Assembly: GCA_900170005.1 (NCBI GenBank)
Contig: LT827128.1
Span: 2,848,168 to 2,912,167 of the forward strand
Source of the DNA: Gordonibacter massiliensis (ex Traore et al. 2017)
GTDB lineage: Bacteria; Actinomycetota; Coriobacteriia; Coriobacteriales; Eggerthellaceae
Reading direction: 5' to 3'
DNA length: 64,000 bases
Shown: positions 1-31,487 of the stretch, one piece after another
Numbering within the stretch: position 1 is the stretch's first letter
How the letters are laid out: each line of letters starts with the position of its first letter
Position numbers and translations under genes: made by a program
The notes under the pieces: model-generated
The model's input: only the letters and a program-made list of their open reading frames with translations
Databases searched by the model: none
What the model was told of the DNA's origin: nothing

Positions 1-1
1 C

Positions 2-820
2 GGGGACGAAACGTGGACGTGGGACAAGTTGGACAAAACGCTCCCCGCCGCGTACAAGTCGATGGAGGACTACCAGAACGACGTGTACTACAGCTACCAG
101 GCGACGAACCCCGAAACGGGCAAGCCGGTTGGGTTCGGCACCACGTCGGGCAAGTGCGAGCCGTACTTCGACGGCATGACCATCATGGGGCGCACGGGCG
201 GCGTGAACGGTGCCGACGCCCAAGGGTTCACCTACCCGCCGGCGTCCGTGGACTACCTGCCGCTCCCGCATTACGTGGAGCCGACGGAGTCTCCCCTCAC
301 CGATACGGAGTACCCCCTCGTGCTCACCCAGGGCCGCATCCCCTTCTACCACCACGGCACGCTGCGCAACGTGCCCTACCTGCGCGAGCTGTACCCGGTC
401 GCGGAGATATGGGTCAACCCCCGCAACGCGAAGGACGCGGGTGTGGAGACCGGCGATTGGGTTTCCGTCGAGTCGCGCCGCGGCGCAATCAGCGCCCGGG
501 TGCTCGTCACCGAGGGCATCGCGCCGGGCGTCACATACATGGAGCGGTTCTGGAACCCGGAGCTGCTCGACTCCGACGACCCCTCGCGTTCGTGGAAGGT
601 CATGAACGTGAACGTTCTGACCAAGGGCGACGGGCCGTTCAATCCCGAGTTCGGCACGTACACGCTGCGCGGCATAACCGTGAAGATCACGAAGGTCGAC
701 GGCCCGCCCGAGGGGGTGTGGATCGAGCCTGCCGACTTCGAGCCGTGGATGCCCCAGCCGAGCGATCCCACCGGTGGCGCCGAAGCCGTTTACGACTGTG
801 GGGAGGCGAACTATGCGTAA
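2..820 (+). CDS. DmsA-like molybdopterin oxidoreductase catalytic subunit, C-terminal part
   Basis: The frame is already open at base 2, so the gene begins upstream and only its last 272 residues are visible. They match the C-terminal part of DMSO-reductase family catalytic subunits: a YPLVLTQGRIPFYHHGTLRN segment, then GDWVSVESRRG and YMERFWNP, which belong to the molydopterin-binding cap domain. The same block occurs in the complete paralogue at 50945-53782, including PEFGTYTLRGI near the end. The protein should reduce an S- or N-oxide or a related acceptor in the exported reductase complex. The substrate is unknown and the Tat signal and Fe-S motif lie outside the window. The stop codon overlaps the start of the iron-sulfur subunit gene, which implies coupled translation. 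Confidence 0.9.
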   Translation, partial: GDETWTWDKLDKTLPAAYKSMEDYQNDVYYSYQATNPETGKPVGFGTTSGKCEPYFDGMTIMGRTGGVNGADAQGFTYPPASVDYLPLPHYVEPTESPLTDTEYPLVLTQGRIPFYHHGTLRNVPYLRELYPVAEIWVNPRNAKDAGVETGDWVSVESRRGAISARVLVTEGIAPGVTYMERFWNPELLDSDDPSRSWKVMNVNVLTKGDGPFNPEFGTYTLRGITVKITKVDGPPEGVWIEPADFEPWMPQPSDPTGGAEAVYDCGEANYA

Positions 821-1400
821 CACCTTGGTTATCGATCTCGACCGGTGCATCGGCTGCTACAGCTGCGCCGTCGCATGCAAGACGGAAAACGACATCCCGT
901 TGGGCACGTATTGGAATAAGGTCATCGAGATGGGCCCGACGATCAACGATCGTGGCAAGAAAGAAACGTACTGGCTGCCCGTGCAGTGCCAGCAGTGCGA
1001 GAACGCTCCGTGCATCCACGTGTGCCCCACCGGCGCCTCCTATCGAGACGAGGAAAGCGGCATCGTGCTCATCGACAAGGAGAAGTGCATCGGCTGCAAG
1101 TACTGCATGATGGCGTGTCCCTACGGCGTGCGCACCTGGAGCGAGACCGAGCAATGCGTGGAGAAGTGCACGCTGTGCGGCCAGCGCACGTCGGCCGGCG
1201 AGCAACCTGCCTGCGTGGCCGCGTGCTGCGCCGAGGCGCGCTTCTACGGCGACCTCGACGACCCCGCGAGCGATGTCGCGCGGGCCGTGGCGGCGGCCGA
1301 TCCGAAAAGCGTGCACGCGCTCATGAACGTGGGAAACGATCCGACGACCGCCTACCTGCTCTCGGAGTCGGTCGCTGCTTGGAAAGGCGGTGATAACTGA
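813..1400 (+). CDS. dmsB: DmsB-like iron-sulfur subunit
   Basis: A 195-residue electron-transfer subunit that passes electrons from the membrane anchor to the molybdenum subunit. Four ferredoxin-type cysteine groups are visible: C12/C15/C18/C22, C59/C62/C67/C71, C92/C95/C98/C102 and C115/C119/C122/C134/C138. This is the usual four-cluster DmsB/NrfC pattern. The ATG at 813 is chosen because GGGAGGCGAA precedes it and homology begins at the following residues (MRNTLVIDLDRCIGC). An in-frame upstream ATG lies inside the preceding gene. The gene overlaps dmsA upstream by eight bases and shares one base with the anchor gene downstream. Close paralogue: 50361-50945. Confidence 0.95.
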   Translation: MRNTLVIDLDRCIGCYSCAVACKTENDIPLGTYWNKVIEMGPTINDRGKKETYWLPVQCQQCENAPCIHVCPTGASYRDEESGIVLIDKEKCIGCKYCMMACPYGVRTWSETEQCVEKCTLCGQRTSAGEQPACVAACCAEARFYGDLDDPASDVARAVAAADPKSVHALMNVGNDPTTAYLLSESVAAWKGGDN

Positions 1401-2221
1401 TGGCTGTTCAGTGGTCGCTCGTTGTATTCACGCTGCTCACCGGTGCCGCCGGTTGGTGCTTCGCGGCGTTGGCGTTCGATGCCGTGCGCGGCAAGAACCG
1501 GGACAAGGCATTCTTCGCCACGATCGTCGCGCTCGTGCTGATGGTGGTGGGCGGCGTGGCCTCCGTCACGCACTTGGCGCACCCTGGGAACATGCTCGCC
1601 GCGCTGAACAACCCTACGTCGGGCATTTTCGTCGAGGCGATGCTCGTCGGGTTGTCGTCGGTATGCATGATCGTGTTCGCCGTTCTGGTGAAGCGCGGTG
1701 CGGCGCCCACGGCAGCCAAGGTCTTCGCGGTTGCCGGCGGCGTGTTGGGCGCGGCTCTTTCGTATCTGGCAGGATCCTCCTACCTTATGGAGGCCATCTC
1801 CTCGTGGAACACCGTCGTGCTGCCCTTGGGCTATCTGGCAACGGCGGTTCCGGCCGGCATCACGCTGTACCTGGCGTTGGTGGGCAACGATGCCGAAGAC
1901 CCGCAGACCCTGCTCGTCGTCATGGTGGCTGGTGCGGTGTTGGGCGCGGTGTTCGGACTGGTTTACGCGCTCGGTAGCGGGTCGCAGGCCGATGTGACGC
2001 TGCTGCTGTACGGCGGTGTGGTCGCATGCGGTGGCCTGGTGCCGGTCGTGTGCGGTCTGCTGGCGTTCAAGCGGCGTGGGCAAATGCGCACGCTCATGGC
2101 GGTTGCCTGCGCTTGCGCGCTCGTGGGGGCCCTGTGCTTCCGCGTGATCATGTGGGAGACGTTCGTGTTGGCCGCCGCTCAGGTAGGTGCGCCGTACATC
2201 ACGGATTTCATGGTTCTGTAG
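1400..2221 (+). CDS. dmsC: DmsC-like membrane anchor subunit
   Basis: A 273-residue, strongly hydrophobic protein with about eight predicted membrane spans. It starts MAVQWSLVVFTLLTG, typical of DmsC anchors (MDIQWSLVLFT in the paralogue at 49555-50361). In the known family it anchors the DmsAB dimer to the membrane and oxidises menaquinol. The start codon shares its A with the TGA of dmsB, so translation is coupled. Conserved segments seen in both paralogues include SVTHL-HP and PTSGIF. A hairpin follows the stop codon before the next gene. Confidence 0.92.
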   Translation: MAVQWSLVVFTLLTGAAGWCFAALAFDAVRGKNRDKAFFATIVALVLMVVGGVASVTHLAHPGNMLAALNNPTSGIFVEAMLVGLSSVCMIVFAVLVKRGAAPTAAKVFAVAGGVLGAALSYLAGSSYLMEAISSWNTVVLPLGYLATAVPAGITLYLALVGNDAEDPQTLLVVMVAGAVLGAVFGLVYALGSGSQADVTLLLYGGVVACGGLVPVVCGLLAFKRRGQMRTLMAVACACALVGALCFRVIMWETFVLAAAQVGAPYITDFMVL

Positions 2222-2244
2222 CGCGGCGCTTGCGCGTTGAAGGT

Positions 2245-2278
2245 CCGTGCGGCTTCTCTTCACGGGGGAGCCGCACGG
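2245..2278 (+). terminator. Hairpin between anchor gene and NapG-like gene
   Basis: Ten-base arms CCGTGCGGCT (2245-2254) and AGCCGCACGG (2269-2278) form a strong hairpin 24 bases after the anchor stop codon. No T-run follows, so it is more likely a partial terminator or mRNA-end stabiliser than a full stop. A hairpin with different sequence occupies the same place in the second operon (49516-49546). Confidence 0.55.
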
Positions 2279-2351
2279 CGGCAGACCACTCAAAGGAGGT
2301 TTGCCGCCGTGCGAGGCGCGGAATGGAAAACGACGGGACGACGGGGGCGGT

Positions 2352-2927
2352 ATGGATCGCAGGACGTTCGTAATCGGAGGGGTCGCAACGGCGGGGTTCG
2401 TCCTGTTGGGAGGGGTGGCCACGGCGTTCGCCGGACCGGGGGACCTGCTGAGGCCGACGGGCGGGCAGGACGAGGCGGCGTTCGTCGCCCGCTGCGTCAA
2501 GTGCGACCGGTGCCGGTCGGCGTGCCCGCAGCAGTGTATCCAGACCGCGTCTTTGGAAGACGGGCTGCTCGCGGCCCGCACGCCCAAGATGAACTTCCAT
2601 CGCGGCGCCTGCGACTTCTGCGGGAAATGCGTCGAGGTATGTCCCACGCGGGCGCTCGTTCCCTTCGACCCCGAGGTCGACAAGATCGGCGTGGCGGTGG
2701 TGGACGAGAACCGGTGCCTTGCCGTGGACGGGTCGTGCCAGGTGTGCTCGGACGTGTGCCCGTATGGGGCGATCTCCTTCGCGGCGGGCGGCATGCCCGT
2801 GGTGGACGCGGCCCTGTGCAACGGCTGCGGGGTCTGCGAGTACCGGTGCCCGTCGTCGGTGCTGCGCGCGTACAGCGCCACGGGCAAACGGGGCATCAAC
2901 ATCGAGAAATGCGAGGCGGGGAGATGA
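2352..2927 (+). CDS. NapG-like periplasmic ferredoxin, Tat-exported
   Basis: A 191-residue polyferredoxin. The N-terminus MDRRTFVIGGVATAGF is a Tat-type signal with a hydrophobic stretch to about residue 27. Four cysteine groups follow: C48/C51/C54/C58, C87/C90/C93/C97, then CQVCSDVCP and CNGCGVCEYRCP. This matches NapG/MauM-type ferredoxins that work with NapH in quinol oxidation. The start at 2352 is chosen for the Tat motif and the GGGGG upstream; longer in-frame starts add an unlike N-terminus. The stop overlaps the next start (ATGA). Its place inside a dms operon suggests an extra electron route into this reductase. Paralogue at 48917-49498. Confidence 0.85.
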   Translation: MDRRTFVIGGVATAGFVLLGGVATAFAGPGDLLRPTGGQDEAAFVARCVKCDRCRSACPQQCIQTASLEDGLLAARTPKMNFHRGACDFCGKCVEVCPTRALVPFDPEVDKIGVAVVDENRCLAVDGSCQVCSDVCPYGAISFAAGGMPVVDAALCNGCGVCEYRCPSSVLRAYSATGKRGINIEKCEAGR

Positions 2928-3931
2928 AGCGCAAGATCGCGAACGTGCGCGGGGCGGTGGTGTTCGCATTAGTGATAGGCGTTACGGCTCTTGCCTGCGC
3001 CTTCGACGCGGGAACGGGAACCTTGTCGGCCCTGGGCATAGGGAGCATCGCGAGCCTCTGCCCGGTCGGAGCGCTCGAAGTCGCGGTGGGCGCCAAGTCG
3101 GTAAGCGTTCAGATGCTCCTGTGCGCGGGCGTCGCCGTGGTGCTGACGCTCGTCCTGGGCAAGGCGTTCTGTTCATGGGCGTGCCCCACGACGTACCTTC
3201 AGAGGTTCTTTCGCGGCCGCAAGGCGCGCAAGGATGCGGACCAGGGCGAGGACAGGGGCGAGCCCGCTGACGGAAGCCCCGCGCCCTTGCAAGGCGAACC
3301 CGCTTCGACCGGTCTCGGGGGCTCCGAGGTTGCCGCAGGTTTCCGGCACTCCGGCTGCGCGGCGTGCGGCGCGTGCGCGGCGCTCGAGCCGGTGGGTGGC
3401 AAGCGCAACGGTGTGCGGATAGATTCTCGCCACGTTGCGCTGGCGGGCGCCGTGGTCTCGTCGTTTTTGTTTGGGTTCCCCGTGTTCTGTCTCGTCTGCC
3501 CTGTGGGGCTTACCTTCGCTACGCTGATAGGGCTGTGGCACCTGTTCCAATACAACGAGACCACCTGGGGGCTGCTCGTGTTCCCCGCCGTGCTGCTGGC
3601 GGAGGTGCTGGTGCTGCGCCGTTGGTGCTTCAATATCTGCCCAATCTCGGCGCTTCTCGGCTTGGTGTCGGGTCTGAACAAGACGTTCAAGCCGCAGGTG
3701 GACGAGTCCCTTTGCCTGCGTCGGCAAGGCGTCGACTGCCGGGTGTGCGTGTCAGTGTGCCCGGAGCAGCTGGACCCGCATTCGGGGCGCATTCCTGAAT
3801 GCTCGAAGTGCGGGTTGTGCGTGGACGAGTGCCCTGCCGGCGCGATTGCCGTCCGGGCGCTTCCGAAAAGGCGTGCGGACGGCGAGGGGCTGCCGGCCGA
3901 AGAGCCGTTGCCTCTCGGCAAGGCGCGCTGA
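2924..3931 (+). CDS. NapH-like membrane ferredoxin
   Basis: A 335-residue membrane protein of the NapH/polyferredoxin type. Membrane spans near the N-terminus surround CPVGALE and CSWACPTTYLQR; a central hydrophobic block carries CLVCPVG and CFNICPIS. Two ferredoxin motifs lie near the C-terminus, CRVCVSVCPEQ and CSKCGLCVDECP. The family passes electrons from menaquinol to NapG-type partners. The ATG at 2924 overlaps the preceding TGA. A charged, low-complexity insert at about residues 100-150 differs strongly from the paralogue at 47712-48917, so this loop is not conserved. Confidence 0.87.
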   Translation: MKRKIANVRGAVVFALVIGVTALACAFDAGTGTLSALGIGSIASLCPVGALEVAVGAKSVSVQMLLCAGVAVVLTLVLGKAFCSWACPTTYLQRFFRGRKARKDADQGEDRGEPADGSPAPLQGEPASTGLGGSEVAAGFRHSGCAACGACAALEPVGGKRNGVRIDSRHVALAGAVVSSFLFGFPVFCLVCPVGLTFATLIGLWHLFQYNETTWGLLVFPAVLLAEVLVLRRWCFNICPISALLGLVSGLNKTFKPQVDESLCLRRQGVDCRVCVSVCPEQLDPHSGRIPECSKCGLCVDECPAGAIAVRALPKRRADGEGLPAEEPLPLGKAR

Positions 3932-19152: not shown

Positions 19153-19463
19153 TGTTAAACCAGCATCGACGTGCGCTCGGTCAGGTTGTCGCCCTGAGCA
19201 CCGGCCAGGTTGCCATCCTGAGCGGAGGCCAGGTTGTCATCCTGAGCGGAGGCGGCGAAAGCCGCCGGAGCCGAAGGATCCCGTGTGGTGCCAACCGAAA
19301 ACGCTACGGCTGCCGCCGCGCGGGATCCTTCGCCCCCGCTCCGCGGGGCCTCCCTGCGCCCGCTTTGCGTGCCCGGGGTTCGACGGTCCGCCGGACCGTC
19401 GAATGCTCCGCTCTCTCAGGATGACAACGCGCTGGCTCGCGTATTGTCAACGGTGGTTTGACA
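19153..19463. repeat. CATCCTGAGC element with TGTTAAACCA-type ends, copy 2
   Basis: Begins TGTTAAACCAGC and ends GTGGTTTGACA, imperfect inverted ends. Inside are three tandem 24-base units (19182-19205, 19206-19229, 19230-19253), each starting CAGGTTG and ending with CTGAGC plus a GC tail. Inverted GAAGGATCCCG/CGGGATCCTTCG arms follow, then a closing CTCAGGATGACAACGCGCTGG. The ends and the last block match 42692-42824. No ORF is present. Confidence 0.72.
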
Positions 19464-19885: not shown

Positions 19886-20047
19886 ATGGAGGCATCGGGG
19901 GAGAAGCCGCCGGTTCCCCTTGCAGGCAAAAACTATTCGGGCAAATTTCAAGTGCGCATACCGCCCGAGTTGCACCGGAGGTTGGCCATCGAGGCTGCTG
20001 AGGAGCGGGTTTCGCTTAACAGGTTGGTGACAACGCGCCTTGCCTGA
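19886..20047 (+). pseudogene. HicB-like antitoxin remnant
   Basis: A 53-codon frame starting MEASGEKPPVPLAG and continuing YSGKFQVRIPPELHRRLAIE then RVSLNRLVTTRLA. This is the C-terminal ribbon-helix-helix segment of HicB-type antitoxins. The N-terminal half is missing from this frame, a TAG lies just upstream, and no HicA toxin gene is nearby. In another frame just before it, PDFMRGCVSG resembles the middle of HicB. The likeliest reading is a decayed, frameshifted hicB. A functional small repressor cannot be excluded. Confidence 0.6.
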
Positions 20048-20135: not shown

Positions 20136-22283
20136 ATGGAAACCAAGTACGCGACCTGCGTGTTCTGCGACGGTCAATGCGCCGTCAAGGCCGAAATCGA
20201 GGGGGATCGCATGCGCGTGCTCCCCGCCAACCCGGATTTCCCCGCCCTGTGCTCCAAGGCGACTATGATCGACGAGTATCGGCTGCATCCGGATCGCGTG
20301 ACCGTTCCGCTGAAGAACGTGGGCGCGCGCGGCGAAGCGCAATGGCAAGGAACGACCTGGGACCAGGCGCTCGACGAGATTGCCGAACGGCTGCAAGCGG
20401 TGGTGGACGCGCACGGCCCCGAGGCCGTGGCGTTCGCGGAGATGCCGCTCAACGTCGGCGTCGGCGGCGTCACGCGGCGGTTTATGAACTGCCTGGGCAC
20501 GCCCAACTACACGGCACCCACGCAGTTGTGCATGGGCAACACCGCGCAGGTGAACCGGGCGACGTACGGATGGTTCGTCTCCTCCGACTGGGAGCAGACC
20601 GATTGCATCGTCTACTTCGGGCAAGATCGCGATGGCGAGCGCTGGCCCGGCGAGTTTCTGGCGCTGAAGGCCGCGCTCGAGCGTGGAGCGGTGCTCATCG
20701 AAGTCGACCCGCGCGAGACGGCCACGGCTAAGTTGGCCGATTACCATCTACGCATCCGCTACGGCACCGATGCGGCGCTCATGTTGGGATGGATTAACGT
20801 CATCATCGCCGAGAATCTGTACGACCGCGCTTTCGTCGAAAGCTCGTGCATCGGCTTCGACGAGCTGGTCGAACGGGTGGCGGAGTACCCGCCCGAGCGT
20901 GTGGCCGAGCTGTGCGGGATCGATGCCGAACTCGTCCGCGAAACGGCTCGCGTGTACGCGCGGGCGCAGGCGGCCATCATCCCATGGGGCGTGGTGGGCG
21001 ACATGCAGCGCAACTCCACGTCCATGGTGCGCTGTCAATGCATTCTGCGTGCCATCTGCGGTTTCCTGAACAAGAGCGAGACGGTGTTCGGCCCGTCGCT
21101 GGGCGGTGTGACCAACGCCCAGCTGGCGGCGTTCGACCTTCTGCCACCCGAGAAACGCGCTTTGCAGCTGGGCGTGGACACGCATCCGCTGCTCACGTTC
21201 AAGGCGTCGAACCTCTACCGTTCCGCGCTCGAGCGCGAAGGCGTGCCCTACGAGCCCGACATCTTGGGCGAGTCGTGCGCCTGCGATCCCGCCACGCTGT
21301 TCGCCGCCATGCGCGGCGAGGGTCCGTACCCGGTCAAAGCCGTCTTCTGCGTGGCGAACAACACGGTCATGAGCTACGCGAACCAACCGGGCATCGTGGA
21401 CGCGTTCATGAACCAGGACCTCGTGGTGGCCTTCGAGCACTGGATGACGCCTACGGCCCAGCTGTCCGACTACGTGCTGCCAGGCGACATGTGGGCCGAG
21501 CGCGACGTGCTGGGGCCGCAGTTCGACGTGGCGCCCGTGTTCTCGTGCGGCCAGGCGTTCCGCGAGCCGGTGGGCGAATGCAAGAACTGGTACTACGTGG
21601 TGAAGGGCCTGGCCGACCGTCTGGGCTTCGCCGAGCATTTTCCGTGGGCCGACGAGCACGAGCTGTACGACTTCCGGCTGGCGCCGCTCGGGCTCACGTG
21701 GGACGAGCTGGCAGCGCAGGGTAAGACGATGACCAAGCCGGTGGCGCTCGGCCGGTTCGTCACGCCGTCCGGCAAGGTGGAGCTGGCAAGCTCCGTGCTG
21801 GCCGATCTGGGCTTCGACCCGCTGCCCTCCTACGAGGAGCCGACCGATCCCGGGTGCGAAGGCCGCACGGACGCGTTCCCGTATACGATATTCGCCGGCT
21901 TCCGCGAACGCTCGTCGTACAACACGAACCTGCACCAGATGGAGTCCCTGCGGGCGCGGCAACCCGAGCCGCAGTTCTTCATCAACCCGGCCGATGCGGC
22001 CGGCGAGGGAGTGTCCGACGGCGTGTGGTGCGTGGTGGAAACGACGTACGGCCAGGTGGAGCTGCTATCCAAGCTGGACGAGGCGCAGCCGGCGGGCACG
22101 TTGCGCGTGCCGCACGGCTGGTGGAAGCCCGAAACGGCTCAAGGCGTCGCGGTGGGGTTGAGCTCCGCCAACCTGCACAACGACGGCATGCTGTTCCCCG
22201 ACGCGGACTGGAACCTCGACCCCTCCCAAGGCGTGCCCAACCTGCGCGGCGGCATCCACGCCCGCGTGCGCGTGAAGGAGTGA
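20136..22283 (+). CDS. Acetylene-hydratase-like molybdopterin (W/Mo) enzyme
   Basis: A 715-residue DMSO-reductase-superfamily enzyme without Tat or other signal, so cytoplasmic, and without partner subunits. The [4Fe-4S] ligands are Cys8, Cys11, Cys15 and Cys39. Asp12 directly follows Cys11, the position of the catalytic Asp13 of Pelobacter acetylenicus acetylene hydratase. Cys132 in TQLCMGNTA fits its metal-binding cysteine. Trp170, Trp284 (IIPWGVVGDMQ) and Trp453 (GDMWAERD) sit where that enzyme has active-site tryptophans. The C-terminus (DWNLDPSQGVPNLRGGI) also resembles it as I remember the sequence. A non-redox hydratase or transhydroxylase-type reaction is inferred; the substrate is unknown. 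AAGGGGGAG precedes the ATG. Confidence 0.8.
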   Translation: METKYATCVFCDGQCAVKAEIEGDRMRVLPANPDFPALCSKATMIDEYRLHPDRVTVPLKNVGARGEAQWQGTTWDQALDEIAERLQAVVDAHGPEAVAFAEMPLNVGVGGVTRRFMNCLGTPNYTAPTQLCMGNTAQVNRATYGWFVSSDWEQTDCIVYFGQDRDGERWPGEFLALKAALERGAVLIEVDPRETATAKLADYHLRIRYGTDAALMLGWINVIIAENLYDRAFVESSCIGFDELVERVAEYPPERVAELCGIDAELVRETARVYARAQAAIIPWGVVGDMQRNSTSMVRCQCILRAICGFLNKSETVFGPSLGGVTNAQLAAFDLLPPEKRALQLGVDTHPLLTFKASNLYRSALEREGVPYEPDILGESCACDPATLFAAMRGEGPYPVKAVFCVANNTVMSYANQPGIVDAFMNQDLVVAFEHWMTPTAQLSDYVLPGDMWAERDVLGPQFDVAPVFSCGQAFREPVGECKNWYYVVKGLADRLGFAEHFPWADEHELYDFRLAPLGLTWDELAAQGKTMTKPVALGRFVTPSGKVELASSVLADLGFDPLPSYEEPTDPGCEGRTDAFPYTIFAGFRERSSYNTNLHQMESLRARQPEPQFFINPADAAGEGVSDGVWCVVETTYGQVELLSKLDEAQPAGTLRVPHGWWKPETAQGVAVGLSSANLHNDGMLFPDADWNLDPSQGVPNLRGGIHARVRVKE

Positions 22284-22368: not shown

Positions 22369-23862
22369 CTACAACACCATCATGGCCACGGTGAGCACCA
22401 CCACGCTCACTACGCCGATGACGATGATGGGCACGAGCGCCCACTTCAGCCACGTGGAATACTCCACCTTCGCCATCATGAGGCCCGGCAGGAACGCCGC
22501 CGTGGGGCTGAACAGGTTCGCCAGGCCGTTGGCAGCCACGAAGATCATCACCATGACGTCGGGCGAGAAGCCGAGCGATGCCGCCAACGATCCCATGATG
22601 GGCATGGATAGCGTGGCCAGCGCCGACGTGGACGTGATGATGAACGACAGCCCCAAGAATATGAGGTAGCACACCGGCGCGAACACGATGGCGCTCGAGC
22701 CCGCCAGCAACTGCGAGGCGTTGTCGAGGATCATGACGTCCAGATGCGTCGAGGCCATGAGGATGGAGATGGCGCGCGCCAGGCCAACCACCAGCGCCAC
22801 GCCCACCATGTCGGCGGCGCCGTCGATCCACGCGTTCACGATCTGCCGCTCGGACATGCGCGCCACCACGCCGATGACGATGGACATGATGAGGAACCAC
22901 ACGGAAGCGTCCTTGAAGTACCACTCGCCCAGCGGTGCGCCGGTTATCCACGCGCTCCACGGCAGCACGGCCCACGAGCCGTCTTCGCCCGGCACGCCGC
23001 CCAGCGTGAAGAAGTCCACGCCGAAGTTCTGCCACGGGATGAACCCGACGATCATGACCAGAAACGACAGGCCGAACAGCGCGAGCGCCACCCCTTGCGT
23101 GCGCGTCATGGCCGGCGTCGCTTCGCCCTCTCGGGCCTCCTCGCCTTTCTGGGCCTCGGTGCCGAACGCCTGCTCCATGGCATGCTGTTCCTGCAGCGAA
23201 AGGATGGTGGAACCCTTGTCGGCCTTGACTTTGCGCGCGTAGCGCATGACGAAGAACACGGCCAGTGCATAGGCCGCCGCGAGCAGCACCAGGCCGAGCA
23301 CGATGGTGGTGCCCGGATCGGCCTCGATGCCCGCCGTCTTCAGCGTGTCGATGGCCACGCCGTTGGCGAACGGGTTCACGGTGGAGCCCAAGCAGCCCAC
23401 GCCCGCGCCCAACAGTACGGTGCCCACGGCCACCATAGTGTCGAAGCCGGCTGCCACCATGGTGAGCGACAGCAACGCGTAGAAGGGCACGGCTTCCTCG
23501 CAGAACCCGTACGAGCTGCCCAGCAACGCGAAGATGGCCATGATGATGGGGATGAGCAGCAGCTCGTGGCCGTGCATCTTGCGCACCAAAGCGGTGATGC
23601 CCGCGTCAAGCGCGCCTATCTTCGTCACCATGCCCAGGCAGCCGCCCAAGATGAGCAGGAAGAACGATATCTCCGCCGCGTCGATCAGGCCCTCGACCGA
23701 CGAATCCAGAATCTGGGGCAGGCTTGCGGCGGTCACGCTCGGCGTGATGAACGAGCACACCACGGTGGCCAGGCCCACCACGATAATGATGATGAACAGG
23801 ATGCTGTAAGAAGAGAGCGGCTCGCGTTGCTTCTTCTCCTTCTTGGCTGGTGCGTCCGACAT
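22369..23862 (-). CDS. YfcC/DcuC-superfamily membrane carrier
   Basis: A 497-residue membrane protein with about twelve spans and a charged central loop (about residues 205-250). SSYGFCEEAVPFYALL and GSTVNPFANGVA in the first half, and the repeat-like STSALATLSMPIMGSLA in the second, are typical of the C4-dicarboxylate anaerobic carrier superfamily (YfcC/AbgT-like). Members carry dicarboxylates, amino acids or peptides by H+ or Na+ exchange; the substrate here is unknown. It is convergent with the acetylene-hydratase-like gene, with only 85 bases between their stops. GGGGAAGGGG precedes the ATG. Confidence 0.82.
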   Translation of the reverse strand: MSDAPAKKEKKQREPLSSYSILFIIIIVVGLATVVCSFITPSVTAASLPQILDSSVEGLIDAAEISFFLLILGGCLGMVTKIGALDAGITALVRKMHGHELLLIPIIMAIFALLGSSYGFCEEAVPFYALLSLTMVAAGFDTMVAVGTVLLGAGVGCLGSTVNPFANGVAIDTLKTAGIEADPGTTIVLGLVLLAAAYALAVFFVMRYARKVKADKGSTILSLQEQHAMEQAFGTEAQKGEEAREGEATPAMTRTQGVALALFGLSFLVMIVGFIPWQNFGVDFFTLGGVPGEDGSWAVLPWSAWITGAPLGEWYFKDASVWFLIMSIVIGVVARMSERQIVNAWIDGAADMVGVALVVGLARAISILMASTHLDVMILDNASQLLAGSSAIVFAPVCYLIFLGLSFIITSTSALATLSMPIMGSLAASLGFSPDVMVMIFVAANGLANLFSPTAAFLPGLMMAKVEYSTWLKWALVPIIVIGVVSVVVLTVAMMVL

Positions 23863-26448: not shown

Positions 26449-26803
26449 AAAGTCACGTATTCGTCAACTTTCACGAGGCTTGCGCGTGACTTGCAGAAGC
26501 CTCGCGAAAACTCGCAGCGCGGCTGCGCGCGCATGTTTCGAGCGACGCGCAAAGCCGCAACCTTCACTGCATGGTATCCCCGCACGAACGCGTCGCACCG
26601 ATGGGAGCCCTGCAGCTGCCAAAGCGAAAGGTCGTTGGAACGTGCCCGTTAAACGTGGCGCCGCCACAAGCGGCTCAAGGCTCGTTGCAAACTTCTCACC
26701 AGCGGAAACGGCGAAATGCCCCCACGGGGGTAATGGCCAGATCTCGACAGAGCGCGCATGATGCGAGCTCGAGGAACCATCGAAAGAAAGAATGGAGGAG
26801 GAC
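26449..26803. other. Gap upstream of the cytochrome operon
   Basis: About 355 bases between the CIRCE element and the cytochrome gene. It contains one inverted repeat, CGAGGCTT (26474-26481)/AAGCCTCG (26497-26504). A promoter for the cytochrome-flavoprotein operon must lie here, but I could not choose one. No gene is supported. Confidence 0.4.
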
Positions 26804-27457
26804 ATGGTCGACAAGGAGAACGGCGCCGACACGTCGGGTGCGAACCCGGCGGAGCCCGCGGCTTCCGAGCCGGGCATCGGCGCGGCCGGCCGCACGCCGG
26901 ACATGCCGCAGGCGAGGCGCACGAAGCGCGGCTGGATCGTGGCCGGCGTCATCGTGGCGGTGGTGCTGGTGGCCGGCATCGGGGCGTGGGTGTGGCACGA
27001 GCAGCCCAGCTTCTGCAACGCCATCTGCCACAGCCCCATGGACAAGTACGTGGAAAGCTATGGCGAGGGCGACCCGGGCAAGCTGGTCACGCAGCACGCG
27101 GCGGCGGGCGACACGTGCCTGAGCTGCCACGAAGCCGAGTTCACCACGCAGGTGTCCGAGGCCATGGCGTGGGCGTCCGACAGCTACCCCATGGACGAGG
27201 CCGGCATGCTGGCCACGGGCAAGGAGTTTGCCACCGAGGAGTTCTGCGCGCGCAGCGGCTGCCACAGCATGGACGAGGTGGTGGCCAACACGTGGGGCTT
27301 CGAGGGCAACGACGAGAAGTACAACCCGCATTCCAGCCATCAGGACTTCGCGTTGGAGTGCGGCGACTGCCACAAGGTGCACGAGAAGAGCACGCTCGTG
27401 TGCAACGAATGCCACGCGCTGACCGCGCCTGAGGGATGGGAGGCCCCGAATGAGTAA
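26804..27457 (+). CDS. Membrane-anchored multihaem cytochrome c
   Basis: A 217-residue NrfH/NapC-like quinol-side cytochrome. A single membrane helix lies at about residues 44-63. Five haem-type motifs follow: C71-x3-C75-H, C105-x2-C108-H, C148-x4-C153-H, C186-x2-C189-H and C200-x2-C203-H. Two have non-standard spacing, so the number of haems is four or five. It should pass electrons from menaquinol to the exported flavoprotein encoded next, which overlaps it by eight bases. GGAGGAG sets the start at 26804 rather than 26792. Confidence 0.88.
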   Translation: MVDKENGADTSGANPAEPAASEPGIGAAGRTPDMPQARRTKRGWIVAGVIVAVVLVAGIGAWVWHEQPSFCNAICHSPMDKYVESYGEGDPGKLVTQHAAAGDTCLSCHEAEFTTQVSEAMAWASDSYPMDEAGMLATGKEFATEEFCARSGCHSMDEVVANTWGFEGNDEKYNPHSSHQDFALECGDCHKVHEKSTLVCNECHALTAPEGWEAPNE

Positions 27458-29189
27458 CGAGCGCAGCGGACTCTCGCGCCGCAGCTTCCTCAAGGGAGCG
27501 GGCATCACTGCGCTGGGCGCCGCAGCCGCCGGCGCGCTGGCCGGATGCGGCAACGGCTACGCGGTGGAGGCCGGCGCCGCCCCCGCCAACGCACGCGTGG
27601 GGGAGACGGGCACGCCCAGCTGGTTGGGAATGCCGCCGGAGGTGGCCGAGGCCGACATCGTCGAGACGCTGGACGTGGACGTGCTGGTGGTGGGCTGCCG
27701 CACGGGCGGCCTGCCGGCCGTGATCTCCGCCGCCGAGAACGGTGCGCGCGTGCTGGGCATCGACCGCGTGTCCAAGGTGGCGAACCCGCGCGAGGACATC
27801 GGCGCCATCGATTCCGCGCTGCAGAAGGCGTCGTTCGCGGAATACCCCCAGTTCGAGATCGACAAGATGGAGGCCGTGGAAGACATCGTCCGCTACGCCA
27901 ACGGCTTCATCAACTACGATCTGGTGAAGCTGTGGGCCGACGAGTCCGGCGCCATGCTGGACTGGATCACCGGCATCGTGGAGCGCGACGGCCGCATGGT
28001 CATGAACTTCGAGGGCTCCATCGGCACGACGGGGCAGGGCGCGCGCGACAAGGCGTGGGCCACGGGCCACAGCCCCGCCAAGACCGACCTGTCGAAGGAC
28101 GACAAGAGCTTCAGCTTCGGCGTGTCGCTTATGGAGTACGCGCAGGAGAAGGGTGCTGAGTTCCGCTGGGACACCGAGCTCGTGAAGTGCGAGCAGGATG
28201 CCTCCGGACGCGTGACCGGCGTGATCGCCCGCGACGTGAAGGACCGCCACTACCTGCGCATCAACGCCGGCAAGGGCGTCATCCTGTCCACGGGCGGCTA
28301 CGGCAACAACCTGGAGATGATGGAGGCGCGCCAGCCGTGGAACCAGGCTCTGCGCATCGCGGCTCCCGGCAAGGGCGGCAACCCCACGGGAGACGGCATC
28401 AAGGCGGCGCTGTGGGCGGGCGGCCAGATGGACCCGCTCGGTGCGGCGTGCACGTTCAACCGCGCGTGCTGCAAGCCCGATCAGACGGCCGGCGACGGTA
28501 CGGTGGGCGAGTGGTTCTGGTTCGGCGAGCAGCCGTTCATGAAGGTGAATCTGAACGGCAACCGCTTCTGCAACGAGTCCGGCCCCTACGACTACATGCT
28601 GCATTCCGCCTACATGCAGCCGCATCACACGTACTGCGACATCTGGGACGCGAACTACGCCGAGCAGGTGCGCCAGATGAACGAGGTGGGCTGCTGCCGT
28701 TTGTACCCGTTCGACAACGGCGCGCCGTCGAACCGCACCATCGAGTCCATGGCGCCCGAGTTCGAGAAGCTCATCGAGGCCGGCTACATCCAGCAGGCCG
28801 ATACCATGGAAGAGCTAGCCGAGAAGCTGAACATTCCCGCCGACAACCTGGTGAAATCGTGGGAGCGCTACAACCAGTTCGCCGAGCAGGGCAAGGACGA
28901 GGACTACAACAAAGAGGCGTACCGCCTGATGAAGCTGGACACGCCGCCGTTCTACGGCGTGCGCACTGGCGCCTGGTTCCTGGCCACGCTCGACGGCGTG
29001 ATGATCGACACCGACCTGCATCCTGTGCGCGAGGACGGCTCGGCCATCGAGGGGCTGTACCTGACGGGGGACTGCTCGGGCGGTTTCTTCAGCGTGAGCT
29101 ATCCGAACCTGTTCACCGGCTTGGCGTGCGGCCGCACCATGACGTTCGGCCGCCGCGCCGGCATGCTGGCCGCCACCGGACAGGCGTAA
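27450..29189 (+). CDS. Tat-exported FAD-dependent reductase (fumarate-reductase-like flavoprotein)
   Basis: A 579-residue flavoprotein. The signal LSRRSFLKGAGITALGAA is Tat-type and ends at LAGCG, so Cys33 may be a lipid anchor. The FAD-binding start is VDVLVVGCRTGGLPAVI at about residues 76-92; the C-terminal FAD block is GLYLTGDCSGGFFSVSYPN. The family includes fumarate, urocanate and other enoate reductases that take electrons from a cytochrome partner. The C-terminal block differs from the usual fumarate-reductase GG-N-x-L form, so the substrate is probably not fumarate; it cannot be named. It overlaps the cytochrome gene. Confidence 0.85.
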   Translation: MSNERSGLSRRSFLKGAGITALGAAAAGALAGCGNGYAVEAGAAPANARVGETGTPSWLGMPPEVAEADIVETLDVDVLVVGCRTGGLPAVISAAENGARVLGIDRVSKVANPREDIGAIDSALQKASFAEYPQFEIDKMEAVEDIVRYANGFINYDLVKLWADESGAMLDWITGIVERDGRMVMNFEGSIGTTGQGARDKAWATGHSPAKTDLSKDDKSFSFGVSLMEYAQEKGAEFRWDTELVKCEQDASGRVTGVIARDVKDRHYLRINAGKGVILSTGGYGNNLEMMEARQPWNQALRIAAPGKGGNPTGDGIKAALWAGGQMDPLGAACTFNRACCKPDQTAGDGTVGEWFWFGEQPFMKVNLNGNRFCNESGPYDYMLHSAYMQPHHTYCDIWDANYAEQVRQMNEVGCCRLYPFDNGAPSNRTIESMAPEFEKLIEAGYIQQADTMEELAEKLNIPADNLVKSWERYNQFAEQGKDEDYNKEAYRLMKLDTPPFYGVRTGAWFLATLDGVMIDTDLHPVREDGSAIEGLYLTGDCSGGFFSVSYPNLFTGLACGRTMTFGRRAGMLAATGQA

Positions 29190-29775: not shown

Positions 29776-29925
29776 TTGCATGCCGACCGTAATCGAGCCG
29801 TCCCGGGATCGCCTCGAACGTGCGCCGATCTGGCGTTTCGACCGTCCCAACCTTGCACGAACCTTGCTCGTCCGCCGCGCGGATCTTGCCGTTATCTTGC
29901 ACATCCGCCGCAGAAACTTTGCATG
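29776..29925 (+). promoter_or_regulatory. Phased A[CT][CT]TTGC motifs upstream of a LuxR gene
   Basis: A-C/T-C/T-TTGC occurs six times on one strand, with TTGC at 29776, 29853, 29864, 29885, 29897 and 29919. The last five are 11, 21, 12 and 22 bases apart, close to whole helical turns. The array lies about 140-290 bases before the regulator gene. It may be a multi-site operator. Confidence 0.4.
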
Positions 29926-30052
29926 GCTGCCGCAAGTGCCGGGTCGGCCTTTTCGCATCCCGCGTGCCGCCTTTTCCGACTGTCGTTTCTTTCTCTTTCG
30001 CACCGCGCCGCCACCTGCGCGGCCGTTTGCTTTTGAGCGCCGGCGCGCATGC

Positions 30053-30066
30053 TACAATGACGGGCA
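30053..30066 (+). promoter_or_regulatory. -10 box placed for a leaderless transcript
   Basis: TACAAT (30053-30058) lies seven bases before the ATG at 30066, so transcription would start at or next to the start codon. No Shine-Dalgarno sequence precedes either ATG (30057 or 30066). Leaderless mRNAs are common in Actinobacteria. Confidence 0.45.
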
Positions 30067-31487
30067 TGACCGCTTCCCCGCAACAAACTTCCCCGCTGTT
30101 CGCTGAGCCGTTTTGGCGGGTGTGCGCGGCGCTTCTGTGCGTGCTGCTCACTACGTCGCTTATGAACGTGGTGGTATTCCCGCGCTTCGACGCGGTGTTC
30201 ACGTACGCGCGCGACGTGTCGGTGCTGGCCAACGCCGTGACGCTCATTGCCGTGGGCCTCGTGGCCACGTTCAGGCCGGCGCTTCTGCATATGAGGGCGC
30301 TCACGGCGGGATGCCTTGCGCTGCTTGCGATCGGTTCGGCGTTGCTGCCGGTGGGACTGTACGGCGGCAGCGCGGTGGCGCTGACGGCGGCGGCGTGCGC
30401 CCTGTCCATCGGGCGCGGATGGGCCATCGTGCTGACGGGCGTCGCAGCCTCGCGCTTGGAGGTGGGCCAGGCGGGCGCGTGCATCGCGCTGGCGTTCGTG
30501 GCGGAGTACGCGGCCACGGCGCTGGTCTGGGTGATCCCGGCGGGTGCGGGCACGGTGCTGTTCGCGCTGCTGCCGTTCGCCACGGTGGCGCTGGTATGGC
30601 GAACGGCGCGACCCGTGTTGCAAGCCACGGAAAGCGGCGAGGCTCCGGCCGACTTCTCCGTCACCCAGCCTTCCACGTTCTTGCCGCTGGCCAGCCAGCT
30701 GTTCGTGTGCCTGTTCCTGTTTCGCGTGGCGTTCGGCTACTCGCTGCGCTTCGGCGAGGTGGGCGGCGTGCCGGTGTCCGACTTCCTGGGCATCGTACCC
30801 GTAGCGGCGGTGGCTCTGTACGTGCTGCTGTCGCGGCGGGCGTTTCCGGCCGACCTGCTGACGCAAGTGTCGGTGCTGCTGGTGGTGGCGGGCTTTTTGG
30901 TGGTGTCGTCGGGCAGCGCGTACGCGGCTGTGGGAAGCGTGACGCTGCTTGCGGCCGGCAACGCGCTGTTCGACATGGTGGCGTGGCTCGTGCTCATCGC
31001 CGTGGCGGGACGCAACCCGTGTGCGGCCGTGGCCACGTTCGCTTGGGGCCGCGGCGTGTCCGGGCTGGGCTCCACGACGGGCGCGGCGCTGGGCGTGTGG
31101 TCGAACGACCTGTTCGGTGCGGGGTCACCGGCGGTTGCCTTCGTCACGGGCGCGCTCATCCTCGTGTTCGTGGGCTACGCGCTCATCGGGCTCAAGCGTT
31201 TCAGCTTCGCCGAGACCATCGCCGGGGTCACGCCCGTGGCCGAGGAGGTGGCGAAGTCGCCCGAGGAGAAGTTTGCGAAACGCTGCCAAGCGCTCGCCGA
31301 GCGCTACGGCCTGAGCCCGCGCGAGTTGGAGGTGTTCATGATGCTGGCGCGCGGACGCGACCGCGCCTACATTCAAGAGCAGCTGGTCGTGTCGCGCAAC
31401 ACCGTGAAGGCCCACGTCAAACACGTGTACGCGAAGCTCGATATCCACACGCACCAAGAGTTGATCGACTTGGTGGAACGCGGCTGA
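30066..31487 (+). CDS. Membrane-bound LuxR-type regulator
   Basis: A 473-residue protein: about twelve predicted membrane spans (residues about 15-385) and a C-terminal LuxR helix-turn-helix. The latter has YGLSPRELEVFMMLARGRD then IQEQLVVSRNTVKAHVKHVY and AKLDIHTHQELIDLV. Such transporter-like sensors fused to LuxR domains are abundant in Eggerthella and often lie next to reductase genes. It probably controls the upstream cytochrome-flavoprotein operon or a nearby target. The signal is unknown. The leaderless start is preferred; ATG 30057 is the alternative. Confidence 0.88.
   Translation: MTASPQQTSPLFAEPFWRVCAALLCVLLTTSLMNVVVFPRFDAVFTYARDVSVLANAVTLIAVGLVATFRPALLHMRALTAGCLALLAIGSALLPVGLYGGSAVALTAAACALSIGRGWAIVLTGVAASRLEVGQAGACIALAFVAEYAATALVWVIPAGAGTVLFALLPFATVALVWRTARPVLQATESGEAPADFSVTQPSTFLPLASQLFVCLFLFRVAFGYSLRFGEVGGVPVSDFLGIVPVAAVALYVLLSRRAFPADLLTQVSVLLVVAGFLVVSSGSAYAAVGSVTLLAAGNALFDMVAWLVLIAVAGRNPCAAVATFAWGRGVSGLGSTTGAALGVWSNDLFGAGSPAVAFVTGALILVFVGYALIGLKRFSFAETIAGVTPVAEEVAKSPEEKFAKRCQALAERYGLSPRELEVFMMLARGRDRAYIQEQLVVSRNTVKAHVKHVYAKLDIHTHQELIDLVERG

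Follow-up and report, generated by a model that had tools for sequence, protein, structure and literature searches.

The window, a stretch of 64,000 nucleotides of Gordonibacter DNA, carries at positions 20136..22283 (+ strand, ATG start) a gene for a leaderless protein of 715 aa that is homologous to acetylene hydratase (AH, PDB 2E7Z), shares its predicted fold and conserved catalytic residues, and has an altered substrate pocket. The best reading of these features is a stand-alone cytoplasmic hydratase-type enzyme acting on a substrate other than acetylene. More specifically, and by analogy with AH, we regard as about evenly poised the proposal of a soluble, single-subunit enzyme of the AH subfamily in which D12 would act as acid/base in the non-redox hydration or dehydration of an unsaturated molecule, probably not acetylene. 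The genus agrees with the gut-type actinobacterium that had been suspected as the host in an earlier, sequence-only reading of this DNA.

The presence of AH-like proteins in Gordonibacter is not new as a statement, since AH orthologues account for most of the 73 molybdoproteins of G. pamelaeae 7-10-1-b according to a 2018 survey, which also predicted tungsten (PMC6147048). What is added here is that, in this related genome, the catalytic Asp was observed in one frame only, which is a member of the AH lineage with a changed pocket; the annotation is thereby sharpened from "most" molybdoproteins to one frame. A literature search on AH together with Eggerthella, Gordonibacter and gut homologs returned no report of this protein in the titles, abstract beginnings and passages that it covered. 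The mechanism of AH is disputed (PMC12096430, PMC6013536), and a related lineage with the same core and a different pocket would make it possible to ask which residues decide between hydration and redox reactions and which ones determine the substrate.

The gene product and its fold

The genomic open frame comprises 718 codons versus 715 in the ORF, therefore no twin-arginine or Sec leader can be hidden upstream, and the absence of an export signal proposed in the sequence-only reading holds. The 715-aa protein contains the Pfam domains Molybdopterin and Molydop_binding. All 25 NCBIfam matches listed for it remained below their respective cut-offs; formate dehydrogenase alpha (TIGR01591) scored 227 bits versus a cut-off of 666 bits, and thiosulfate reductase PhsA (NF012032) 213 bits versus 694 bits. 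The dN/dS values of 0.19 and 0.27 calculated against two Gordonibacter orthologues are indicative of purifying selection, and the gene is therefore maintained. A sigma-70 promoter scan yielded no sites, and four terminator-like sites were seen versus 3.0 expected by shuffling.

Among proteins of solved structure, the best relative by sequence is AH (2E7Z), with 684 bits over residues 4–710, followed by the thiosulfate/polysulfide reductase 2VPW with 173 bits. The identity to 2E7Z in the multiple alignment is 47% over the full length. An AlphaFold2 model, built from 38 sequences (the window protein and 37 loci), has a mean pLDDT of 92.1 and a pTM of 0.93, with residues 286–289, just after W284, below 50. 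When this model was superposed with VIA-align 2 on 999 chains that Foldseek had pre-ranked, 2E7Z came out at the top (Z 57.3, 1.5 A, 710 residues), the runner-up being 2VPW (Z 35.0, 2.8 A, 662 residues). The likeness to AH that had been noted for the C-terminal part was thus borne out and extends over the whole chain, both in sequence and in superposition. The domain arrangement of AH is described in the review PMC6013536 as different from that of other family members, and the whole-chain superposition of the model suggests that the window protein has this arrangement in common with AH. The formate dehydrogenase and thiosulfate/polysulfide reductase identities are disfavoured by the NCBIfam scores, the search among sequences of solved structures, and the model superposition.

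Catalytic core and substrate pocket

Residues were compared in an alignment of the window protein, 2E7Z, 15 close loci (L021–L035, 54–86% identity to the window protein) and 65 distant loci (L036–L100, about 41–45%), with AH numbering anchored by Cys9/12/16/46, Asp13 and Cys141; all correspondences given below were taken from this sequence alignment. Locus L035 starts at residue 170, hence 14 close rows cover the early positions, and L034 was retained despite an in-frame stop close to its end.

A CxxCDxxC motif (20157..20180, +) supplies the cluster cysteines C8, C11 and C15, with D12, directly after the second of them, aligned with Asp13 of AH and G13 aligned with Ile14. The fourth cluster cysteine, C39 (20250..20252, +), corresponds to Cys46, and C132 and M133 (20529..20534, +) correspond to the metal ligand Cys141 and to Ile142. 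L105 (20448..20450, +) stands at the Ile113 position, W170 (20643..20645, +) and W284 (20985..20987, +) match Trp179 and Trp293, and F463 (21522..21524, +) is found where AH has Trp472. Ile14, Ile113, Ile142 and Trp293 are pocket positions of AH. Asp13, Cys141, Trp179 and Trp472 are named as AH residues in PMC12096430.

Cys9, Cys12, Asp13, Cys46 and Cys141 are conserved in 14/14 covering close rows and 65/65 distant rows, Cys16 in 14/14 and 64/65 (Phe in L079), and Trp179 and Trp293 in 15/15 and 65/65. The pocket is different. The Ile14 position is Gly in the window protein and 12/14 close rows, the Ile113 position Leu in the window protein and 9/14 close rows, and the Ile142 position Met in the window protein and 11/14 close rows, the other three having Val. 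None of the 15 close rows has W at the Trp472 position, and the nearby W453 of the window protein aligns with a different position, AH residue 462. Therefore, the catalytic core is fixed while the pocket is not, and since the pocket positions vary even within the close clade, one common substrate for its members is not assured.

Asp12 next to the second cluster cysteine, Cys132 as a candidate metal ligand, and Gly13 and Met133 as replacements of pocket isoleucines had all been pointed out beforehand and were confirmed by the alignment, which adds L105 to the replacements. Of the three tryptophans said to match the active site, two did so and the third did not, being F463 in this protein. The earlier observation and its interpretation as an AH-like enzyme consequently stand in their gene, core, pocket and leader parts and fall short in the three-tryptophan claim. 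Since neither the isoleucine set (G13, L105 and M133 in place of Ile14, Ile113 and Ile142) nor the tryptophan set of the acetylene pocket is intact, a non-acetylene substrate becomes more likely. According to the review PMC6013536, changing Asp13 of AH to Ala almost abolished activity, and a single change of a pocket Ile to Ala reduced it markedly. Production of AH in E. coli succeeded with a NarG N-terminal fusion (PMC6013536), and Gordonibacter urolithinfaciens has been developed into a heterologous host (PMC11887054).

In the mechanism proposed for the hydratase-type enzyme, a bis-MGD metal centre (W or Mo) would be held by C132, and a [4Fe-4S] cluster on C8, C11, C15 and C39 would lie next to it, as judged by homology. 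By analogy with AH, the metal, reduced and ligated by two MGDs and C132, would hold a water molecule under D12, and D12 would shuttle protons during the addition of water to a multiple bond, or its removal, with no net redox change. Because G13 and F463 are smaller than the AH residues, the pocket is expected to be wider, and a larger or differently shaped substrate is the reading that we favour. Tungsten use in this genome is plausible, as four AFOR_N matches were found and PMC6147048 describes the AFOR family as dependent on tungsten almost throughout, although this evidence is circumstantial because the E. coli control genome likewise matches.

Phylogenetic position and the other MopB genes

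Two phylogenetic trees were constructed, a quick one of 56 rows (14 of the 15 close loci, 16 of the 65 distant loci, 24 paralogues and one AH sequence) and a careful one of 32 rows (11 close loci, 12 distant loci, 7 paralogues and one AH sequence). In the quick tree the window clade has a support of 100 and its grouping with AH 97; in the careful tree the grouping of AH with the window clade has 96/95 and the distant group 96/94. AH, the window clade and the distant group are together set apart from the paralogues at 100. A tree in which AH was forced to join the distant, proteobacterial group was worse by 9.8 log units but could not be rejected (AU p 0.121), and forcing the window clade to join the distant group was rejected (p 0.024). 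The view of the protein as AH-like, and probably with a different substrate, rather than a formate dehydrogenase or reductase therefore survived the grouping test, with 2E7Z by far the best structure; the phylogeny favours AH as the sister of the window clade but leaves the proteobacterial alternative standing.

The position beside AH, the closest characterised relative and one with the same catalytic core, would suit a true acetylene hydratase converting acetylene to acetaldehyde. We nevertheless consider this identity improbable, given the replacement of three pocket isoleucines and of Trp472 and the effect that one Ile-to-Ala change already had on AH. In addition, we are not aware of any source of acetylene in the gut. 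A search for closer relatives of AH, with thresholds of 1e-160 and 1e-180, covered 398 genomes from the phylum to which L034 belongs and 297 from that of L046, each set being a sample of a larger group; besides the two entry genomes, above-threshold matches were found in six genomes only, all of the CxxCH type. PMC7858054 describes a Coriobacteriales acetylenotroph, which was not identified among the genomes searched.

The genome (3.95 Mb, one contig) contains the very large number of 85 Molybdopterin-domain matches, of which three pairs look like pieces of one frame. Besides the window gene, 84 non-redundant frames match the AH-clade profile, although some of the fetched stretches may cut gene ends. 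CxxCDxxC is absent from the first 330 residues of all these 84 MopB frames, none carries Asp in the position 13 column of the profile alignment (28 His, 14 Gly, 17 other letters, 25 gaps; 59 thus have a letter there), and none combines D13, C141, W179 and W293. The nearest paralogues, for example in L101 and L103, show CxxCH. At L101, from 1 to 3500 or so (G000:C1, about 1.5685–1.5720 Mb), there is a large CRISPR-like array with 46 copies of one repeat family, spaced mostly 65–69 nt; it precedes the best-scoring paralogue, a MopB gene of the CxxCH type, by about 0.5 kb.

Catechol dehydroxylases are reported in PMC7028382 to be nearest to AH among known enzymes and, since Gordonibacter has many MopB genes, membership of this class or a close relative of it had to be considered. 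It appears very improbable. Eleven paralogues resembling these enzymes make up a clade of their own at 100 in the quick tree, and the window protein lies outside it; the resemblance was judged from gene layout and the published descriptions (PMC7028382, PMC12771579), the rows of the tree including no named dehydroxylase. These paralogues have GCH..GC motifs instead of CxxCD, mostly with His at the Asp13 position, and their first cluster cysteine appears to be missing; this is in keeping with the statement in PMC11574389 that Gordonibacter dehydroxylases are without an FeS motif of the Eggerthella ones. Genes for 4Fe-4S partners have been reported for gut catechol dehydroxylases (PMC12771579), and an FeS-motif ORF of 111–114 aa was present in 6/10 paralogue loci, while no such partner gene adjoins the window gene in the 3 kb on each side.

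A redox function is a more serious, though still doubtful, alternative to hydration. According to PMC12096430, AH stands alone among Mo/W enzymes in catalysing a reaction that is not redox, and the other proteins of its subfamily are uncharacterised, so the prior odds favour redox chemistry. The window protein could then reduce or hydroxylate a small organic molecule, receiving or passing electrons via its single [4Fe-4S] cluster, the ligands of which are retained, and a soluble carrier such as ferredoxin. Many of the 85 Molybdopterin-domain matches resemble reductive dehydroxylases by gene layout, which would fit such a role. However, the window protein has Asp at the AH position, where paralogues with a letter have His, Gly or others, and its model superposes on AH along the whole chain.

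Distribution, gene neighbourhood and known systems

At a strict cut-off of E <= 1e-200, one match each was found in 16 of 138 Eggerthellaceae genomes, representing 7 of 48 genera. The gene is present in four of the five Gordonibacter genomes G000–G004, with no match above this cut-off in G004. At 1e-150, matches were obtained in 19 of the 396 genomes sampled from the class, and the three matches outside Eggerthellaceae (L122, L126 and L129) are of the CxxCH type. Sheep ileum, goat jejunum and roe deer jejunum are among the origins given in the titles of records with close loci. One could tentatively propose a second, gut-associated lineage of non-redox W/Mo hydratases, in which an AH site with a wider pocket would hydrate or dehydrate a larger unsaturated dietary, drug or host substrate, and of which scattered Eggerthellaceae would have one copy per genome.

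In L021, L024 and L207, the Gordonibacter loci that were compared, the gene is flanked by nicotinamidase on one side and Nudix/Sir2/Hsp20 genes on the other. In G004 the nicotinamidase is kept and no AH-like gene match was found in the syntenic stretch; at this site (G004:C49:62000-74000, L206) a flavoprotein match, 35% identical to the flavoprotein of the window, lies between the nicotinamidase and Nudix matches. A gene for a DcuC-type transporter (22369-23862) is convergent with the window gene; a match to it adjoins the gene in L024, and none was found in the L021 and L207 stretches. The 1.17 kb gap preceding the gene contains three tandem copies of a 24-base unit (19182-19253). Also upstream of the gene is a truncated remnant of a HicB-type antitoxin gene (19886-20047, +; Pfam HicB 63.8 bits); a longer HicB-type gene, 92% identical over the remnant, occupies that site in Gordonibacter sp. 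28C (L024 7589-7912). Elsewhere in the window, at 26792-29189 (+) and 29820-31487 (+), a cytochrome c3-type gene is followed by a gene of the FAD_binding_2 flavoprotein, the start of which resembles a twin-arginine leader, and by a LuxR-type regulator gene.

A motif scan detected no FeS-motif ORF within 3 kb of the window gene, in agreement with the proposed lack of a partner subunit, and none in 12 of the 15 close loci, four loci having cut flanks; L028 has a 90-aa ORF of this kind some 2.4 kb upstream of the gene and in the same orientation, and L032 and L033 have one of 323 aa on the opposite strand. None was found in the 65 distant loci (38 with full flanks), while 9/10 paralogue control loci contain one, the exception being L101. 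PMC7858054 states that, with one exception, the putative and reference AH genes compared there, Pelobacter included, have a gene of an Fe-S-binding protein in a nearly adjacent position, which could be taken in favour of redox chemistry in this clade. The window gene has no such neighbour; its context therefore differs from that of AH genes, and the absence of a partner speaks only weakly for a non-redox reaction.

Clustering of neighbours in 79 of the 80 loci L021–L100 (L047 was left out) revealed no family present in at least four loci that took in a close locus. The shared neighbours seen among close loci were those of the Gordonibacter loci with one another and of the near-identical L032, L033 and L035 with one another, and no clues to the substrate were found in the gene neighbourhood. 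Within six genes of the distant relatives, HxlR-type regulators occur in 13 loci (11 matches being directly upstream and divergent), enoyl-CoA hydratase in 11, MaoC in 10 and acyl-CoA dehydrogenase in 7, and flavin-oxidoreductase genes occur near them in some genomes. The acyl-CoA-type and flavin-oxidoreductase neighbours could reflect redox lipid chemistry in these relatives, a further point for the redox alternative.

Of the known systems, AH of Syntrophotalea (Pelobacter) acetylenica (2E7Z, EC 4.2.1.112) is the closest, sharing full-length homology, the predicted fold, Cys9/12/16/46, Asp13, Cys141, Trp179 and Trp293; both are single chains without a leader, as judged for the window protein from sequence and neighbourhood. 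The two differ in the changes Ile14 to G13, Ile113 to L105, Ile142 to M133 and Trp472 to F463, and in the Fe-S gene reported near Pelobacter AH genes (PMC7858054), which has no counterpart adjoining the window gene. The uncharacterised AH-clade proteins of Proteobacteria, Myxococcota and others (L036–L100) likewise share Asp13, Cys141, Trp179 and Trp293 in 65/65 rows. However, besides their lower identity to the window protein, they form a separate clade in the rows treed, and have Ala (49/65) or Met (16/65) at the Ile142 position, Trp (48/65) at the Ile113 position, and W in only 2/65 rows (with a gap in 20/65) at the Trp472 position. The gut catechol dehydroxylases, including Cldh, Dodh, Vadh and Eadh of Gordonibacter, belong to the same bis-MGD superfamily and occur in the same genus, but the paralogues assigned to this class by gene layout differ from the window protein in their separate clade and in having mostly His in place of the Asp.
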